Of a DNA stretch of 64,000 nt, positions 10,083-23,850 are shown in pieces (position 1 is the first letter of the stretch; each line of letters starts with the position of its first letter). The DNA comes from Candidatus Neomarinimicrobiota bacterium (GTDB lineage Bacteria; Fidelibacterota; Marinisomatia; SCGC-AAA003-L08; TS1B11). The position numbers were made by a program, and so were the translations under genes. The DNA is taken from assembly GCA_022560655.1 (NCBI GenBank), contig JADFSS010000004.1, positions 1 through 64,000 on the forward strand. The letters run 5' to 3'. The notes beneath the pieces are model-generated. The model did not search any database and was not told where the DNA came from. It saw only the letters and a program-made list of their open reading frames with translations.

Positions 10083-11003
10083 ATGGCATCACCGCTGGTG
10101 GAGGAGCTGTTGGCCGGATCAGCGCTCGCCATGGCAAGAGCCATCAGCATACTGGAGAATGACTCGCCGGACGCCCCCGCCCTTATTGACGCCCTGCACC
10201 CTTCCGCCAACTCCGGCTACCGCATGGGCATCACGGGCCCGCCCGGTGCCGGCAAAAGTACCCTTGTGGATCAGCTCACCCGGCTCTACCGCAACGCTGG
10301 GCAGAAAGTAGGCATCCTCGCGGTGGATCCCACCAGCCCGTTCAGCGGTGGCGCCCTGTTGGGTGATCGCGTGCGCATGGGTGAGCATTTTCTCGATCAT
10401 GACGTTTTCATCCGCAGCATGGCGAGCCGGGGGGAGCAGGGGGGGCTAGCCGCACGCAGCCAGGAGGTTGGGGATGTACTCTCGGCCGGGGGCTTCGACG
10501 TGATCATTTTCGAGACAGTGGGGGTGGGTCAGATGGAGCTGGATGTCGTATCGGCTGTGGATACTACGATGGTGGTGCTGGTTCCAGAGTCGGGTGACGA
10601 TATCCAGCTGATGAAGGCAGGCATTTATGAGGCGGCCGATATCTTCGTTATCAATAAGTCTGACCGCCCGGGTGCGGACCGACTGCACAAGCTGGTAGAG
10701 CAGCTGCTGGATACCAAAGAAGACCCAGCCGAATGGCAGGTACCTGTCTGTCAGACCAGCGCGCTGCAGGGCGTAGGGGTAGCCGAGTTGCAGTCGCATT
10801 TGGAGCGGCACCGGGCCTATTTACGGTCGTCGGGAGTCCAACTGGAAAAGCGGCGCCTGCGGGCTCGACGGCAGGTCGAGTCCCTCCTGGCCAAGCAGGT
10901 CATGGGTGCTTTCTGGACCGCCAAGCGCCTGGACGCGCTTGAGGACGGCCTGGACGCGGTGCCCCCCTACCAACTGGTCCGCACTCTGCTGGACACCTCC
11001 TGA
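10083..11003 (+). CDS. meaB: MeaB/ArgK-type G3E GTPase, chaperone of methylmalonyl-CoA mutase
   Basis: A 306-residue P-loop GTPase of the G3E class. The Walker A GPPGAGKST is near residue 54, the Walker B region is at VDPTSPFSGGALLGDRVRM, the switch region IFETVGVGQMELDV follows, and the guanine-specificity motif is NKSD. Members protect and reload adenosylcobalamin-dependent acyl-CoA mutases. Older annotation as an arginine kinase (ArgK) is misleading. No mutase or epimerase gene is in this window, so the partner must lie elsewhere. TatC follows 6 bases after the stop. Confidence 0.92.
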   Translation: MASPLVEELLAGSALAMARAISILENDSPDAPALIDALHPSANSGYRMGITGPPGAGKSTLVDQLTRLYRNAGQKVGILAVDPTSPFSGGALLGDRVRMGEHFLDHDVFIRSMASRGEQGGLAARSQEVGDVLSAGGFDVIIFETVGVGQMELDVVSAVDTTMVVLVPESGDDIQLMKAGIYEAADIFVINKSDRPGADRLHKLVEQLLDTKEDPAEWQVPVCQTSALQGVGVAELQSHLERHRAYLRSSGVQLEKRRLRARRQVESLLAKQVMGAFWTAKRLDALEDGLDAVPPYQLVRTLLDTS

Positions 11004-12748: not shown

Positions 12749-13759
12749 GTGACCCGTGCGCTGGTAATCCGGTTCAGTTCCATGGGGGACATTATCCTCA
12801 CTGCGCCTGTCATCAGGCTCCTGAGCGAATCCGATCCGCAGATGACCATCGACTACCTCGTCCACGACCGGTACGTTCCGCTGGTGGCGCGATTCGCCCC
12901 GGCACCCCACAATGTGCTGTCATTCCCAGCGGATGTTGGGGCAACCCAGCTGCCTGCGTATGCACGCCAGCTGGCCGCCTCAGATTATGACCTGGTCATC
13001 GACCTCCACGACTCACTGCGCAGCAAGCTGCTGCGCCGCTATTTCCAGGGGGCGGAGCTTCGCGTGTATCGGAAGCCGCGACTCAGGCGCTGGATGCTGT
13101 TCTACCTGTGGCTGGATCGTTTTGAGCCGGATTACTCAGTCGTACGGGAGTATCTCAGCGCAGCTCAACTCTCTGCCCCGGAAGCACCCCCGCGTCCACA
13201 AATGGCGGTTGACCCCCAAGAAGCGGGCGAGACGCTGCAACGCTTTGGCCTACAGGAAAACTACCTGGTATGTGTACCTGGCGCCGCCTGGCCCCAAAAA
13301 TCGTGGTTGCCCCAGCGCTACGCGGAACTCTTTACGGGCTACGGGGCAGTCTCGTCCCGCCGGTTGGTACTGCTGGGCGGCCCGGGCGATGAGATTTGCG
13401 ACCGGCTGGCAGCAGAATTACCATCCGGGGTTGTGCACAATCTCAAAGGCAAAACGACCCTGGAGGAGTCGCTTGCCATTCTGTCTCACAGCCGGTTGGT
13501 TATCGGGGCGGATACGGGGCTGGTGCATGCCGGCGAGGCGCTCGGTGTGCCTGCGGTTGTGATTCTCGGACCCACATCCTGGCAGACAGGCGCCCGTGCC
13601 CATCATCCGGAAAGCCGGATCCACGAGGTACCCCTGTGGTGCCGCCCGTGCAGCCAGAACGGTCGACGGCGTTGCTATCGCCGGGAACAATACTGTCTTA
13701 CAGGCACCACGGCCCAACAGGTGGCTGTTAGTGTGAACCGGATTCTGGGACGGGCATGA
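12749..13759 (+). CDS. Glycosyltransferase family 9 (heptosyltransferase-like)
   Basis: A 336-residue GT-B enzyme of the ADP-heptose:LPS heptosyltransferase family. The N-terminus ALVIRFSSMGDIILTAPVIR is the family signature; the C-terminal half holds VCVPGAAWPQKSWLPQRYAEL, LVLLGGPGDE and GADTGLVHAGEALGVP, which line the nucleotide-sugar site. Acceptor and sugar cannot be read from sequence. Its position directly before kdtA, with an ATGA overlap, fits assembly of the LPS inner core. The start is GTG. Confidence 0.9.
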   Translation: MTRALVIRFSSMGDIILTAPVIRLLSESDPQMTIDYLVHDRYVPLVARFAPAPHNVLSFPADVGATQLPAYARQLAASDYDLVIDLHDSLRSKLLRRYFQGAELRVYRKPRLRRWMLFYLWLDRFEPDYSVVREYLSAAQLSAPEAPPRPQMAVDPQEAGETLQRFGLQENYLVCVPGAAWPQKSWLPQRYAELFTGYGAVSSRRLVLLGGPGDEICDRLAAELPSGVVHNLKGKTTLEESLAILSHSRLVIGADTGLVHAGEALGVPAVVILGPTSWQTGARAHHPESRIHEVPLWCRPCSQNGRRRCYRREQYCLTGTTAQQVAVSVNRILGRA

Positions 13760-15033
13760 TGGGTCGATTGTGGCGAGTAATCTATAATCTGCTGATTGTT
13801 CCGGCGATGTTTTTGACGGTCTATGCCGTGGCCCCGCTGAATCGCAAGGTCCGGCGGGGGCTTCGGGGTCGTCGGCGAACGCTGAGGCGGGTGACGCATT
13901 TCCGCGACCAGATTTATGACCGTTTTGGCCCCCTGTACTGGTTTCACGTGGCCTCGCACGGGGAGTACGAGCAGGCGCGCCCCGTTATCGAGGGACTGCG
14001 GGAAGTCGTGCCCGAGTGTATCATTGCGGTGAGCTTCTTTTCACCGTCAGGCTATGAGCATTTTGAGCATGAGGCAGTGGACTTCAAATTTTACCTCCCC
14101 ATGGATTTCCCCTGGGTTATGCGGCAACTGCTGAGGGTCCTGAAGCCCCACAAGGTGCTCTTTACCAGTTATGACCTGTGGCCCAACCTCATCTGGAGCT
14201 GCCAGAAAGCCGCTGTCCCCACGACCCTCTTCGCGGCGCGAATCGTGCCGGGCAGCACGAAGCAGTGGCCGGTGCTAGCGAGCTTCTATCGCCAGCTCTA
14301 CGGAGCCCTCACCCACATCTACACCGTGTCCAAGGCCGACTTCTTGAGGGTACAGACAGTGTTGGGCGCGGGCAGCAGGTCTGAGGTAAGGAACCTTGGC
14401 AATCCGCGCTACGATCGGGTCAAGGAGCGCAGCCCAAGCGGGACCAACGCCCTGCGGAACGGCGAGCAGCGCATCATTGTCCTGGGCAGCGTTCACAAGG
14501 AGGACGAGGCGGTTATAGGTCCGGCCCTCATCGAGATCATGCGGCAGGACGAGCGCGTGCAGGTGTTGTGGGCGCCGCACGAACCTGAGCCGGAAGTCGT
14601 TGACGCCCTGGCTGAACAGCTTTCGGCGGCCGGCATAGCCTGGGAACGGTTCAGTCGGCGACTCGGGCGCTTCAGGGACAGCCAGGTGCTGATCGTCGAC
14701 GGCGTTGGCTACCTGGCCGAACTCTACGGCCGTGGTACTTTGGCCTATATTGGCGGCGGATTTGGCACCAACGTTCATAACGTGATGGAGGCCGCCATCG
14801 CCGGCATTCCGGTCCTGTTTGGCCCGCGCTACAGCCGCAGCCACGAAGCTGAGCAGCTCATCGAATCGGGGGGCGGATTCTCGGTGGCTACCGCGGAAGA
14901 GTTTCGGCAGGGGGTGACCGCCTTTTTGGCCGATGATGATTCGCGGATTGAGGCCGGGCATGCAGCCCTGAAAGTCATCGAGGACAACCTCGGGGCCACC
15001 GCACGCATTCTGCAAGCAATCCTTGGGAACTAG
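13756..15033 (+). CDS. kdtA: 3-deoxy-D-manno-octulosonic acid (Kdo) transferase
   Basis: Transfers Kdo from CMP-Kdo to lipid A precursor at the inner membrane. The 425-residue GT-B protein has an N-terminal membrane anchor (IYNLLIVPAMFLTVYAV), the catalytic-base Glu in HVASHGEYEQARP near residue 72, and the C-terminal nucleotide-site signature YIGGGFGTNVHNVMEAA. The sequence resembles FCB-group WaaA more than enterobacterial WaaA. It overlaps the preceding glycosyltransferase by 4 bases and the following ABC gene by 11. Confidence 0.94.
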   Translation: MMGRLWRVIYNLLIVPAMFLTVYAVAPLNRKVRRGLRGRRRTLRRVTHFRDQIYDRFGPLYWFHVASHGEYEQARPVIEGLREVVPECIIAVSFFSPSGYEHFEHEAVDFKFYLPMDFPWVMRQLLRVLKPHKVLFTSYDLWPNLIWSCQKAAVPTTLFAARIVPGSTKQWPVLASFYRQLYGALTHIYTVSKADFLRVQTVLGAGSRSEVRNLGNPRYDRVKERSPSGTNALRNGEQRIIVLGSVHKEDEAVIGPALIEIMRQDERVQVLWAPHEPEPEVVDALAEQLSAAGIAWERFSRRLGRFRDSQVLIVDGVGYLAELYGRGTLAYIGGGFGTNVHNVMEAAIAGIPVLFGPRYSRSHEAEQLIESGGGFSVATAEEFRQGVTAFLADDDSRIEAGHAALKVIEDNLGATARILQAILGN

Positions 15034-16189
15034 CTATTCCCTTGGGGAGCTGCCTCCCGGACTGTATACCCTGGACCCGGCCGCGGGCAATGCATTGGAC
15101 GAACTTCTCGCCGCACTGGCGCACGCCGGTCAGGGCTATCTGGTCTTGCCCCATAATATCGCCGACTATCTGATCGCCGGCACAGTGCGCAGAGAGGTGG
15201 CGTTTGATCTGGAAAATCTCGGTCTGGCGGGTAGCCAATTGAGTCAGGCCGTCGAGGATATTATCGGGAGCGGCCCATTCAGAAACCGCGAGCAGGCTCC
15301 GCTATCCCTCTCCGGCGGGGAGCAGCAACTACTGGCGGTCACAGCTGCCCTACAGCAGGATCGATCCTACCTGTTGGGGTGGTACTGTTTTGACTACGTC
15401 AGTGACGCTAATCTGGAGAGCGTCATCCGGCAATTGGTAGCTCATGGCAAGCGCATGCTGGAGTTTACCCACCGCACCAGCCCTGCGCGGTGGCGATTGG
15501 CCGGACAGCGGCTGGAAACTTCGCCTGTGCTCCTACCTGACCATGACTGGCCCAGCTGGCCCCGGGCTTTGCCCCAGTGGGGGTTCAAGGCCGCCGGGCT
15601 GGCAAAATCCTACCCCAGCTCCAATTTCACCCTCAGTCTGCACAACACGGTCGTAGAGCAGGTGGGGTGCCTGGGCATCCTCGGGGACAACGGTTCGGGC
15701 AAATCTACCCTGGCTGACTGCCTGGCCGGTTTGACCGCCTATGAAGGTGAACTACGGGTGACGCTGCCAGCTGCCCCGGACCCAAAATTCGGGTACCTGG
15801 TGCAGGGGATTGATGGCTCCCTCAACGGCTTGGGCCGGTCGGATCTGATCCGGCGATTCGTGAGCCATGGTCGCATGACGGACAACGGGAGCGAGCAGGT
15901 GGAACGCTTCCTGCTCGCCTCGGACGCCTACCGGCTGCTGGCAGATCTCGATGCCCGGGTAGGTTACCGGCTGGTGGTCATGGCGGCGCTGCTTGTGGGC
16001 GACTATGACATCGTCATTCTGGACGAGCCCAGCTACGGGTTACCGGCCCCGAATGTTGCCGAATTCCTGGTACAAGCCTGCGGGGCACTGGGGGCGAAGC
16101 CGTTGGTATTAATATCCCACGACCGTAATTTGCTGGCGCCGCTCTGTGATATTATCATTGATCTGGATAGGGGCGCCATCAGTGAGTGA
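15023..16189 (+). CDS. Tandem ABC ATPase of the CbiO/EcfA type with reciprocally degenerate halves
   Basis: Two fused nucleotide-binding domains in 388 residues. Half 1 (about 1-170) keeps a good signature, LSLSGGEQQLLAV (95-106), and an EcfA-like stretch (AGTVRREVAFDLENLGL), but its Walker A position reads LDPAAGNALDE and its Walker B reads LLGWYCFD, so it cannot bind ATP normally. Half 2 has intact Walker A GDNGSGKST (221-229), Q261, Walker B VILDEP (331-336) and switch His366, but its signature is replaced by ARVGYRLVV. Together they leave one composite ATP site. The usual strands before Walker A of half 1 are missing. TTG start inside the end of kdtA. No membrane component is adjacent, so substrate is unknown. 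Confidence 0.82.
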   Translation: MGTSYSLGELPPGLYTLDPAAGNALDELLAALAHAGQGYLVLPHNIADYLIAGTVRREVAFDLENLGLAGSQLSQAVEDIIGSGPFRNREQAPLSLSGGEQQLLAVTAALQQDRSYLLGWYCFDYVSDANLESVIRQLVAHGKRMLEFTHRTSPARWRLAGQRLETSPVLLPDHDWPSWPRALPQWGFKAAGLAKSYPSSNFTLSLHNTVVEQVGCLGILGDNGSGKSTLADCLAGLTAYEGELRVTLPAAPDPKFGYLVQGIDGSLNGLGRSDLIRRFVSHGRMTDNGSEQVERFLLASDAYRLLADLDARVGYRLVVMAALLVGDYDIVILDEPSYGLPAPNVAEFLVQACGALGAKPLVLISHDRNLLAPLCDIIIDLDRGAISE

Positions 16190-16733
16190 GACGTCGGATC
16201 GCGTCGTTACCGTCAGTAATTTGCTCAGCCTGTTTCGGGCGCTCTTGTCGCTGCCTATTATCTGGGCTTTGGAGACCGACCGCATGCAGGCAGTGGCTAT
16301 CATGGTCGCTCTGGCAGTGCTGTCGGATTTTCTTGATGGCTACCTGGCAAGGCGGGCGGGCGAAATAACCCACGTCGGCAAGCTCCTTGACCCTATCGCC
16401 GACAAGATTATCATGATGGCCGTCATGATCTATCTGATATTCGACCCAGTAAGAAGGTTCCCGATCTCCTTTTTTGTTTTGCTTGGGATTCGGGACATAA
16501 CGCTCTCCAACGTTGCCACCTTTCTCATGGATCGCAAGGCAAAGGTCTTCGAATCCAATGTGCCCGGCAAATGGTTTATTTTCATTACCACGTTGGCTAT
16601 CATCCTCTACATTGCGAATCTGACGGTGCTGGGTCGCGGCGTCCTGCTCGTGGCAACCGGGCTGATGCTGGTCAGCTGGTACCTTTACATCCGCACCTAT
16701 TTATCATTTTTCAGAGCCTTGCAACGAGATTGA
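16182..16733 (+). CDS. pgsA: CDP-alcohol phosphatidyltransferase, PgsA-like
   Basis: An integral membrane enzyme that moves a phosphatidyl group from CDP-diacylglycerol to an alcohol, most likely glycerol-3-phosphate. The family motif is complete: SDFLDGYLARRAGEITHVGK followed by LLDPIADK. I choose the GTG at 16182 because it gives a normal short N-terminus before VSNLLSLFRALLSLP; the frame is open further up but only by running deep into the ABC gene. It overlaps that gene by 8 bases. CdsA, which makes the CDP-diacylglycerol donor, is at 59 kb. Confidence 0.9.
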   Translation: MSETSDRVVTVSNLLSLFRALLSLPIIWALETDRMQAVAIMVALAVLSDFLDGYLARRAGEITHVGKLLDPIADKIIMMAVMIYLIFDPVRRFPISFFVLLGIRDITLSNVATFLMDRKAKVFESNVPGKWFIFITTLAIILYIANLTVLGRGVLLVATGLMLVSWYLYIRTYLSFFRALQRD

Positions 16734-19786: not shown

Positions 19787-20371
19787 TCAAGTCGCTGGGC
19801 TGCCCAACTTATCTATCAGGATGCGGCGCTGAGTTCTAATGGATTTAAAGTGGCTGGGCGTAAGTCCTGTCACGCTCTTAAACTGGCCGGAAAGATGCTG
19901 GACGCTGCTGTACCCAACTTGGTACGCAATCTCGCTGAGCGTTAGCTCCTCGTAGACCAGAAGTTCTTTGACGCGCTCAATTTTCTGCAAGATAATGTAC
20001 TTTTCAATCGTAATCCGCTCTACAGAAGAAAAAAGATTGCTCAGGTACGAGTAATCTCTCCCCACCTCATCAGCGATCACATCGGATAAATTCCTGTTCA
20101 AGTTTTCCAGCTGATTTTGGTAGATCAGGTTAATGATAACGATTTTTATTTTTTCGACGAGGCTGGCCTTTTTATCGACAAGGAGCTCGAACCCATTATC
20201 CTCGAGAACTCTTCTCACAATTTTCAGGTCAATGTCATCTCGCTGAGACGTGACGACCGCTTTTCCTAATTGGACTTCAAGTGGCGAGAATCCCACGGCC
20301 TCCAGCTCCTCCTTCACGACCCGGATACAACGTTCACAAACCATGTTCTTAATGATCAATTCTTGCTTCAT
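19787..20371 (-). CDS. HMA domain fused to AraC-type DNA-binding domain (metal-responsive regulator, inferred)
   Basis: A 194-residue regulator. Residues 1-70 form a heavy-metal-associated fold with the Cys pair in KNMVCERCIRVV, like Cu(I) chaperones. After a linker the C-terminus is an AraC/XylS helix-turn-helix: LTLSEIAYQVGYSSVQHLS, then FKSVTGLTPSHFK. AraC domains normally activate transcription, and the fused sensor plus position between copper genes suggests copper-dependent control of the island. The coding sequence is visibly richer in A and T than its neighbours, a sign of recent transfer; related proteins are, as far as I recall, common in Bacteroidetes. The gap to the His-rich gene upstream is 26 bases. 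Confidence 0.85.
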   Translation of the reverse strand: MKQELIIKNMVCERCIRVVKEELEAVGFSPLEVQLGKAVVTSQRDDIDLKIVRRVLEDNGFELLVDKKASLVEKIKIVIINLIYQNQLENLNRNLSDVIADEVGRDYSYLSNLFSSVERITIEKYIILQKIERVKELLVYEELTLSEIAYQVGYSSVQHLSGQFKSVTGLTPSHFKSIRTQRRILIDKLGSPAT

Positions 20372-21002: not shown

Positions 21003-22279
21003 GGCTTCGTCGGCTCCAGACGCTGCCCCGCGGGAACCTTTTCGGCCACGGTCCCTTCGGGGGGCTGGTACCAGGCCGCCCCATCGCCGGCCTTTAGATG
21101 GTCTCTCACCTTCAAGATTGTGAACATCCCACCCATTTGGATGGCACCGTAGGGCCCGTCCCCGGCCATCATGGGGAGGGTGTTTTCAGGTCCTGCCATG
21201 TGCCCCGCCATGGCTTGCATGCCACCCATGCCTGTTCTCTCCATCGCCATGTAGTGCGGCAGAAGCTCCCGAATCTTCTCTTGCACATCTGCCTGGTCGA
21301 CGCCCAGCATGTTTGGAAGGTCGTGACCCATGGCGTTCATGGGATGGTGTCGTCGATGGCAGTGGAGCGCCCAATCTCCGGGATTGGCGATAAGCTCGAT
21401 GTCGCGAGTCTGGCCGGGCGCCACCAGTACGGTCGTTTCGGGCCACTGGGCGGAGAGCGGAATATCGCCCCCATCGGTGGCCACCACCTTGAATGAATGA
21501 CCGTGCAGGTGGATGGGGTGCGTTTCTTGGGCTACGTTGGCAAAGCGGATCCGAATGCGTTCCCCCGTGCGCGCAACCAGGGGTGCGGTCCCAGGATAGG
21601 CCCGGCTGTTAAACGTGAAGATATTGAAATCCGTCATGATTTTCGGGTTCGGCCGCGACGAGCCGGGGGCAACGAACCACTCGCTCAAAAAGATGGCGAA
21701 GTCACGATCGATCTTCCGTTCCCGCTGCTTGGGGTGGATGATAAAAAAGCCCATCGTTCCCAGACCGATTTGCGTCATCTCGTCTCCATGGGAATGGTAC
21801 ATCTGAGTGCCGTGTTGGCGCAGAGTGAACTCGTAAGCAAAGGTCTCACCAGGGGCAATTCCCCGCTGGGTCAGGCCTTGGACACCGTCCATCCCACTGG
21901 GCAGGATGACCCCGTGCCAGTGCACGGCGGTGGGTTCCGGCAGCTGGTTGGTCACCAGGATTCGGACCCGGTCCCCCTCAATCGCCTCAATGGTCGGTCC
22001 CGGCGTCTGACCATTGTAGCCCCAGGCCTTGATAACCATCCCCGGAGCTACCTCCCACTGGATTTCTTCGACCACCAAGTGAAACTCCTTTACCCCGTCC
22101 ACCATTTTCCAGGGGAGCGTGCTGCCGTTGGGCGTTACCACCGGGGTATAGGGCAGGTTCGCTTTGATATTCGTGCCTGGTGGACCGCTCCCTGCTAAGG
22201 GGATGGTCCCGAGCATCAAGACCAGGGCAACAGCTGCGCCGAGCGGTGTGAAGGAAAAATGAAAGTGGTGCTTCTTCAT
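20999..22279 (-). CDS. Periplasmic multicopper oxidase
   Basis: A 426-residue cupredoxin-domain oxidase with an N-terminal signal sequence. All four copper-ligand motifs are visible: HWHG, MYHSHGDEMTQ, HPIHLHGHSF and WALHCHRRHHPMNAMGHD. The last one, with extra His and Met, is the form seen in copper/manganese oxidases of metal-resistance loci. Likely converts periplasmic Cu(I) to less toxic Cu(II). Start ATG overlaps the stop of the outer-membrane gene (ATGA) and has GGAGGT eight bases upstream. The C-terminus is Met-rich (MGGMQAMAGHMAG) and then stops where a metal-binding module continues in another frame. Confidence 0.9.
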   Translation of the reverse strand: MKKHHFHFSFTPLGAAVALVLMLGTIPLAGSGPPGTNIKANLPYTPVVTPNGSTLPWKMVDGVKEFHLVVEEIQWEVAPGMVIKAWGYNGQTPGPTIEAIEGDRVRILVTNQLPEPTAVHWHGVILPSGMDGVQGLTQRGIAPGETFAYEFTLRQHGTQMYHSHGDEMTQIGLGTMGFFIIHPKQRERKIDRDFAIFLSEWFVAPGSSRPNPKIMTDFNIFTFNSRAYPGTAPLVARTGERIRIRFANVAQETHPIHLHGHSFKVVATDGGDIPLSAQWPETTVLVAPGQTRDIELIANPGDWALHCHRRHHPMNAMGHDLPNMLGVDQADVQEKIRELLPHYMAMERTGMGGMQAMAGHMAGPENTLPMMAGDGPYGAIQMGGMFTILKVRDHLKAGDGAAWYQPPEGTVAEKVPAGQRLEPTKP

Positions 22280-23850
22280 CGTGGCTTACCTCCTTGATGA
22301 TGGTGGTGCTCTTCAGGTGGTTTCTCTGGTTCGTCGTGCTGCATGTGGTGCTCCTCAGGCGGTTTCTTTGGTTCGTCGTGCTGCATGTGGTGCTCCTCAG
22401 GCGGTTTCTCTGGTTCATCGTGCTGCATGTGGTGCTCCTCAGGCGGTATCTCTGACTCGTCATTTTTCATTGGCGTTCCGTCGTCTCGGGTGAGAGTTGA
22501 CAACCTTCCACCCACAGCTCGCTCCAGCTCAGACTGGGCGACCCAGTAGTCCGTTAACGCCTCTATGTATTGGCTTCGCACATCGATTTCATTCCTTTTG
22601 GCCTGCAGCAGGGCGTAGACCCCCTTGAGCATGTAGTTATAATGCCGTTGTGATAAATGAACCACCTGCTCGTGTAGCGGGATGATGTTATCCCGATAGT
22701 ATTCCACCCTCGCTCGGGCGGCAAGCAACTGACTCCGGTGAATCCGCACCTCTGAGCGTACCTGCCGTTCCATGGCTTCCAGCTGCTTCTTGCTTTGCCT
22801 CAGTTGGCTCTGAATTCGGGCGCTTGCCGCCTGCCCCCGATCGAAGATGGGGATACCGATCTCCACTGTAGGACCCAGCAAGTTGGGCCGATCCGCCTCT
22901 CGCTCAGTATTCACGCCCAGCGTTACGGGCGAAACCACTCCAAATCGAGCCAGCGATAACGCCCGCTGAAGAATCTGGGTTTGTTGGCGCGCGGCAGCCA
23001 AATCCAAGCGTTGAGAAATAGCCCGATCTTCCAGTGCTCCCGAGGGGGGTTCCTGATGGGGAAGCTCGGGCAGAACAGCCTTGATCTTCCAAATATTATC
23101 AGGCTCCGCGAGACCCATGAGGCTGCTCAAACGCTCACGTTTGGCGACGATCCCAGCCTCGCTTTGCATGAGCCTGACCTTTGCCTCATGGAAGGCCGCC
23201 CGCTGGTTCGATAGGTCCAAAATGCTAATGTTACCGGCCATGTGCTGGTGCTCGGCCAACTCCGAGGCAGATTCAGCGGCTTGCACAACGGTCCGCTGCA
23301 TAGCTAGGAGCTGCTGATCACCCTGCAGCGTGTAATACGTCGAGCGTACTTCTAGGGCCAAGTTCAGCACGGCGCTTCCGACGTTGAAGCCAGCCTGTTT
23401 AAACTTCTCCGATGCGAGTTTTTTGCGCGCAGGTAGAAGTATAATGTCCAGGAAATTCTGCTCCACGGAAAACTCCGTGTTGTTGCTCCCTTCCTGAGCC
23501 GGAAAGCGAACGCGGGCAGCAAAGACGGGATTTTTCAGTAGACCGGCTTGCACCACATCGGCCTGGGCGATGCCGAGGTCTTCGAAGGTCGCCTGAAGGG
23601 AAGGGTTGTTCAGGAGGGCGACCTGCACGGCCTCATCCGCTGAGAGTTTTTTGCTCAACATCGACTGAATTTGTTCCACGACTTCACGGTCCTCAGGCTT
23701 TCCCTGGATCCAATGGATGTGTGCTCCCGACCGTGTTTCAACCTGTTCTTGCACACCACGGAACCCGCCGTCCAAGGGGACGGACGCACAACTGGAAACG
23801 ATGAACAGGCCGGCAAACGCCCTGACAGCTGTCCAAACATGATACTTCAT
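22276..23850 (-). CDS. TolC/CusC-like outer-membrane factor lipoprotein with His-rich repeat tail
   Basis: A 524-residue outer-membrane efflux protein. The signal peptide ends in a lipobox-like LFIVSSC, so it should be lipidated. Long helical segments rich in Ala, Gln and Arg, such as LALEVRSTYYTLQGDQQLLA and NEIDVRSQYIEALTDYWVAQ, are typical of TolC-family trimers. The last 60 or so residues are a tandem repeat of 14 residues (HMQHDEPEKPPEEH), ending HHHHQGG, which would add a metal-binding tail. No RND transporter or adaptor gene is in the island, so its inner-membrane partner is unknown. It overlaps the multicopper oxidase start by 4 bases. Confidence 0.88.
   Translation of the reverse strand: MKYHVWTAVRAFAGLFIVSSCASVPLDGGFRGVQEQVETRSGAHIHWIQGKPEDREVVEQIQSMLSKKLSADEAVQVALLNNPSLQATFEDLGIAQADVVQAGLLKNPVFAARVRFPAQEGSNNTEFSVEQNFLDIILLPARKKLASEKFKQAGFNVGSAVLNLALEVRSTYYTLQGDQQLLAMQRTVVQAAESASELAEHQHMAGNISILDLSNQRAAFHEAKVRLMQSEAGIVAKRERLSSLMGLAEPDNIWKIKAVLPELPHQEPPSGALEDRAISQRLDLAAARQQTQILQRALSLARFGVVSPVTLGVNTEREADRPNLLGPTVEIGIPIFDRGQAASARIQSQLRQSKKQLEAMERQVRSEVRIHRSQLLAARARVEYYRDNIIPLHEQVVHLSQRHYNYMLKGVYALLQAKRNEIDVRSQYIEALTDYWVAQSELERAVGGRLSTLTRDDGTPMKNDESEIPPEEHHMQHDEPEKPPEEHHMQHDEPKKPPEEHHMQHDEPEKPPEEHHHHQGGKPR
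22304..22460 (-). repeat. 42-bp tandem repeats encoding His-rich tail
   Basis: Three full copies (22304-22345, 22346-22387, 22388-22429) and a partial fourth of a 42-base unit encode 14-residue repeats of the outer-membrane factor tail. Copies differ at few positions, so the array arose by recent slippage or unequal exchange. Being in frame and coding, it is not a CRISPR or regulatory array. Confidence 0.9.

Follow-up and report, generated by a model that had tools for sequence, protein, structure and literature searches.

A fused EcfA-like ATPase with one composite ATP site, the probable motor of a dispersed ECF importer in Candidatus Neomarinimicrobiota

The open reading frame at 15023-16189 of the window (the whole 64,000-nucleotide stretch of Candidatus Neomarinimicrobiota DNA that was analysed) probably encodes the ATPase of a dispersed ECF importer, likely for a corrinoid, which would be driven by a motor with a single ATP site; we infer the complex, its stoichiometry and its substrate. 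A little less firmly, we also favor the view that this is a natural single-site ABC importer motor, that is, an ECF module that, with one composite site dismantled, binds and hydrolyzes exactly one ATP in each cycle and whose two-site, degenerate-site, and one-site stages persist at the same locus in living relatives.

In the proposed mechanism, a pair of EcfA-like subunits would have become one chain, and one composite ATP site would have been eroded step by step. The remaining site would consist of the Walker A, Q-loop, Walker B, and switch His of half 2 together with the LSGGE of half 1. Since Glu58, at the EcfT-binding position, is invariant in 60 sequences, half 1 was plausibly retained for its signature and for coupling through the EcfT contact. 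In each cycle, a single ATP would be bound and hydrolyzed by the motor, which would drive an EcfT and an S component with genes at two further loci. The coordinates of these features are collected in Table 1.

Table 1. Coordinates of the ATPase, its motifs, its neighbors, and the putative partner genes. Positions are those of the window unless another contig (G000:contig) is given; strand is not given for the EcfT and S component entries.
Feature	Position	Strand	Detail or basis
Tandem ABC ATPase (fused EcfA-like pair)	15023..16189	+	388 aa; TTG start overlapping the kdtA end
Half 1 lost Walker A position, LDPAAGNALD, residues 17-26	15071..15100	+	alignment
Half 1 lost Q-loop/ECF Q-helix position, PHNIADYL, residues 43-50	15149..15172	+	alignment
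Half 1 Glu58, position of the EcfT-binding acidic residue of ECF ATPases	15194..15196	+	spacing (PMC6828968)
Half 1 signature LSGGE retained, residues 96-100	15308..15322	+	LSGG 60/60
Half 1 lost Walker B position, YLLGWYC, residues 116-122	15368..15388	+	alignment
Half 2 Walker A GDNGSGKST intact, residues 221-229	15683..15709	+	60/60
Half 2 Q-loop YLVQ intact, residues 258-261	15794..15805	+	Q261 invariant
Half 2 lost signature position, LDARVGYR, residues 309-316	15947..15970	+	SGG 0/60
Half 2 Walker B DIVILDEP intact, catalytic Glu335	16007..16030	+	DEP 60/60
Half 2 switch His366 intact (ISHD)	16118..16120	+	60/60 in alignment
kdtA (Kdo transferase), conserved upstream neighbor	13756..15033	+	PF04413; synteny
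pgsA-type CDP-alcohol phosphatidyltransferase, conserved downstream neighbor	16182..16733	+	PF01066; synteny
meaB, GTPase chaperone of B12-dependent methylmalonyl-CoA mutase	10083..11003	+	PF03308, E=7.6e-84
EcfT	G000:C73:6646-7359		PF02361
S component	G000:C3:59968-60486		PF12822/PF07155

Motif layout and conservation of the ATPase

The frame has no internal stop. The ABC ATPase profile PF00005 matched the whole chain at 44.9 bits (curated cut-off 25), mostly through half 2, and half 1 alone scored 12.9 bits, below the cut-off. AlphaFold2, run on the chain alone without nucleotide or partner, confidently predicted two ABC domains (pLDDT 90.6, pTM 0.85).

In ABC dimers, each site is formed by the Walker motifs of one half and the signature of the other (PMC7756269). 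The first-pass annotation had proposed a reciprocal motif loss in this tandem protein that leaves one composite site, and an alignment of 60 sequences (6 rows from the window's family and 54 from outside it) upheld both the placement of the motifs and the reciprocal loss, with LSGG in half 1 of every row and SGG in half 2 of none. The full half-1 signature, LSLSGGEQQ, spans residues 94-102. The half-1 Walker A pattern GxxxxGK[ST] was found in 54/54 rows outside the family and in 0/6 inside it, and the QxP[DE]xQ-hydrophobic pattern in 50/54 and 0/6, respectively. The half-1 Walker B reads hydrophobic-DD in all 54 outside rows, the catalytic Glu being already Asp, and is unrecognizable inside the family. 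The N-terminal strands of half 1 are also lost there, and in comparison with class relatives the trimming of the N-terminus that had been noted earlier is real. Glu58 is invariant (60/60) and takes the place of the acidic residue of the EcfT-binding groove, an equivalence drawn by spacing from PMC6828968 and not by structure.

In half 2, the segment LDARVGYR at the lost signature is four residues shorter than in class relatives. Most fused class forms carry a recurrent D-[LI]-P-W-S-x-L-R in its place, which suggests that this position may have acquired a new conserved role. One same-family copy outside the 60-row alignment (L028) has Gln at the position of the half-2 switch His.

Orthologues were found in nine of ten same-family genomes, seven of them complete and two cut by contig ends. 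They belong to four other genera (five counting that of the window), are about 41-52% identical, and adjoin kdtA and pgsA wherever flanking sequence is present. A contig scan for the ATPase gave 65 loci. Almost all are from Candidatus Neomarinimicrobiota (now Fidelibacterota), and in most of them kdtA lies upstream and pgsA downstream. The overlaps with both neighbors noted in the first reading are real, and the linkage recurs in the synteny of the orthologue loci.

A decaying or inactive ABC pseudo-ATPase heading for loss would fit the missing half-1 Walker motifs, the failure to find an orthologue in the sampled genomes of the order's other families (f2-f5), and the long stem branch (2.13 changes per column) of the window's family, which forms one clade in the tree (support 100/100). 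We nevertheless consider it very improbable. The first-pass annotation had held that homologues with intact half-1 Walker motifs would mark this copy as merely decaying; homologues with an intact half-1 Walker A do exist outside the family, but the Walker A is missing in all nine same-family orthologues found. Since the identical losses are common to all nine, and so to five genera with the window's, they are not those of one decaying copy. The reading frames are open, and half 1 had a dN/dS of 0.15-0.29 in the pairs with measurable, unsaturated synonymous sites. Within the family, the elements of the live site are near-invariant (conservation 0.82-0.96) compared with those of the dead site (0.44-0.67), the exceptions being the D-loops of half 1 (0.77) and half 2 (0.85). 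Because of this dN/dS range and this contrast, half 1, the dead half, is judged to be under constraint.

Elsewhere in the window, two minus-strand frames were characterized by reading the sequence. The frame at 22276-23850 resembles an outer-membrane efflux-type protein whose C-terminus carries a His-rich repeat (42-base unit, 3.8 copies, 22303-22461) and lies near a multicopper-oxidase-like and a copper-ATPase-like frame, and that at 19787-20371 seems to join a heavy-metal-binding domain to an AraC-type helix-turn-helix region.

Related forms of the ATPase and known ABC systems

Dozens of other Neomarinimicrobiota (Fidelibacterota) have an orthologue with an intact half-1 Walker A at the same kdtA-X-pgsA position. 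In this class form, a single chain, the half-1 Walker B Glu is replaced by Asp (DD) and the half-2 signature is gone; the window's family has further lost the half-1 Walker A, Q-loop, Walker B, and N-terminal strands. In other classes of the phylum, two separate EcfA-like genes, EcfA-a and EcfA-b (L212, L214-L223), homologous to halves 1 and 2, occupy the kdtA-pgsA position. Unlike the fused chain, they are two genes with both Walker A/B sets intact and, in most, the signature in both. Both carry Walker A, Q-loop, and DEP, and both sites are nearly intact: EcfA-a has the signature LSGGE or LSGGQ, with Gln for the switch His in 10/11, and EcfA-b has LSGGE in 9/11. The EcfA-like ancestry proposed in the first reading is supported.

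Compared in this way, the relatives show the erosion of one composite ATP site in graded stages, and we infer the order of the steps from the distribution of the forms among them. In the tree, the window's family is the sister group of the other fused forms and is not nested within them. A fused EcfA pair with both ATP sites apparently intact was also seen in another class (L213:2-1270, genome G070), possibly an independent or early fusion.

With a consensus and a degenerate site arising from reciprocal motif loss, the ATPase resembles the asymmetric exporters Pdr5, TAP, TmrAB, and ABCC (PMC7756269). Those proteins are exporters, whereas the system proposed here is an importer. The degenerate site of Pdr5 keeps a substituted Walker A (Lys to Cys), whereas the half-1 Walker A, Q-loop, and Walker B are unrecognizable here and the N-terminus is trimmed. 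According to a review, the degenerate sites of asymmetric exporters still bind ATP (PMC7756269).

The EcfA-EcfA'-EcfT module of Lactobacillus delbrueckii with CbrT (6FNP; PMC5997447, PMC10368641) shares with the system described here the two ATPase halves, the EcfT, and S components encoded apart (group II layout), and its CbrT is the closest match of the putative S component found here. It differs in that neither ATPase subunit lacks a motif and both catalytic Glu residues are needed, mutation of either one having abolished ATPase activity and transport (PMC10368641); here, there is one chain with one site gone, and the genes lie at three loci. For ECF-CbrT, two ATPs per cobalamin were assumed, both subunits having all motifs (PMC5997447). 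A literature search, whose coverage misses most subscription papers, returned no report of a degenerate-site ECF module.

ECF membership and membrane partners at other loci

The NCBIfam matches of half 1 were ECF ATPases. The curated ECF ATPase models TIGR04520 and TIGR04521 scored 60.4 and 61.5 bits against cut-offs of 315 and 330, and neither half of the window's protein has the Q-helix motif X-P-[D/E]-X-Q-hydrophobic (PMC6828968). For these two reasons the ATPase was not filed as a member of the ECF A subunits, and we treat it as a derived relative that would work like one.

The best PDB matches by fold and by sequence were two-domain ABC-F and ABCE1 proteins, as might be expected of a soluble, non-transport tandem ABC protein of the ABC-F, EttA, or ABCE1 type. 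The shared two-ABC-domain architecture accounts for these matches, and an ABC-F or ribosome role was therefore rejected as a reading of them. The ECF Q-helix in half 1 of the relatives (50/54), the NCBIfam matches, and the co-occurring EcfT also speak against a soluble protein, which we regard as the least probable of the alternatives considered.

The first-pass annotation had seen no membrane partner. None adjoins the ATPase at its own locus, but the same genome has genes for an EcfT and an S component elsewhere, at two separate loci, and that claim did not hold. A single PF02361 (CbiQ/EcfT) gene was found in 20 of 60 genomes, including that of the window, and all 20 have a tandem-ATPase match. 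The EcfT profile matched the solved EcfT of L. brevis (4hzu, 5e-22), and an Arg in the C-terminal coupling motif is invariant (19/19). The possibility that this EcfT really pairs with a canonical EcfA encoded at another locus was rejected, no gene in the 60 genomes reaching the TIGR04520 cut-off. At the third locus, the S gene is flanked by an HD/OB-fold gene on one side and an outer-membrane-barrel-like gene on the other, and the barrel genes beside it are related between the class and family versions. The only significant PDB match of the S profile was the B12 protein CbrT (6FNP, E=6.3e-5). An assignment to the riboflavin or folate type was discarded, its profile scores being weak.

Among about 125 class genomes (an approximate total), 71 have the ATPase, 68 EcfT, 69 the S component, and 62 all three, with Fisher values for co-occurrence of 4e-22 to 1e-26, uncorrected for phylogeny. 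In one genome, G044, all three were undetected, apparently a case of concerted loss. There, 30 bases separate the HD/OB gene from the outer-membrane-barrel gene (L267, 2723-5377), and the S gene is cleanly missing from an otherwise conserved operon.

The gene neighborhoods could also be taken to mean that the module powers an envelope or lipid process (LPS or phospholipid) instead of vitamin import. The ATPase gene is flanked by kdtA and pgsA throughout, and the EcfT locus holds truA and lipid genes, in a run that was read from the sequence as homologues of lnt, truA, degP, psd, and pssA. Yet the EcfT and S profiles match solved subunits of vitamin ECF transporters, the three genes co-occur tightly, and in class relatives the S gene is found near cobalamin-riboswitch loci. 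We therefore hold an envelope process to be unlikely, and the non-transport envelope role raised in the first reading is now the weaker reading.

Probable substrate and significance of a one-site motor

A cobalamin riboswitch is found no more than about 7 kb from the S gene in 12 class genomes. Seven of them were scanned for the gene on the riboswitch side, which in each is a TonB receptor, followed in some by a DUF5074 gene; a DUF5074 protein of a same-family genome matched BtuG (3dsm, 1e-10; for BtuG, see PMC6143338). No FecCD/BtuC was found in the ECF carriers. BtuCDF was accordingly rejected as the carriers' corrinoid route, the FecCD matches being confined to four genomes without the ECF set. 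The presence of meaB in the gene run of the ATPase gives context for a B12 link as a hint only.

The substrate of the proposed importer is thus probably vitamin B12 or another corrinoid, which is our best guess. It is less certain than the motor, because genomes that lack the ECF set can have cobalamin riboswitches too, with BtuB/BtuG-like genes in at least one such case, and because the riboswitch and TonB receptor lie at another locus than the S gene in the window's family. The riboswitch was consequently not accepted as proof of the substrate and was kept as support only. In genome G013 (L268), which has no ECF set, a cobalamin riboswitch is followed by TonB-receptor-like and DUF5074-like frames, and a FecCD match is absent.

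A one-site ECF importer with a mainly non-corrinoid substrate (biotin via BioY, or another vitamin) overlaps our preferred explanation in all but the substrate, and we give it perhaps one chance in a few. Nearly every same-family genome has BioY, the S gene and the riboswitch occupy separate loci in the window's family, and the S component scores weakly on both folate and riboflavin S profiles. Against this, among solved structures the S profile significantly matches CbrT alone, the riboswitch is close by in the 12 class genomes, and one module can serve several S components. The ECF module may in fact serve more than one, including biotin (BioY).

Assuming that the importer works as proposed, it would provide a candidate inner-membrane corrinoid route, BtuC not having been found among the carriers, for a widespread uncultured marine phylum. 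Whether ABC importers use one or two ATPs per cycle has been argued mostly from mutants. Since each single Glu mutant of the L. delbrueckii module lacks ATPase activity and transport, a native one-site motor would be informative. Here, evolution has apparently removed one site and kept the machine, and the graded stages among the relatives could be used side by side.
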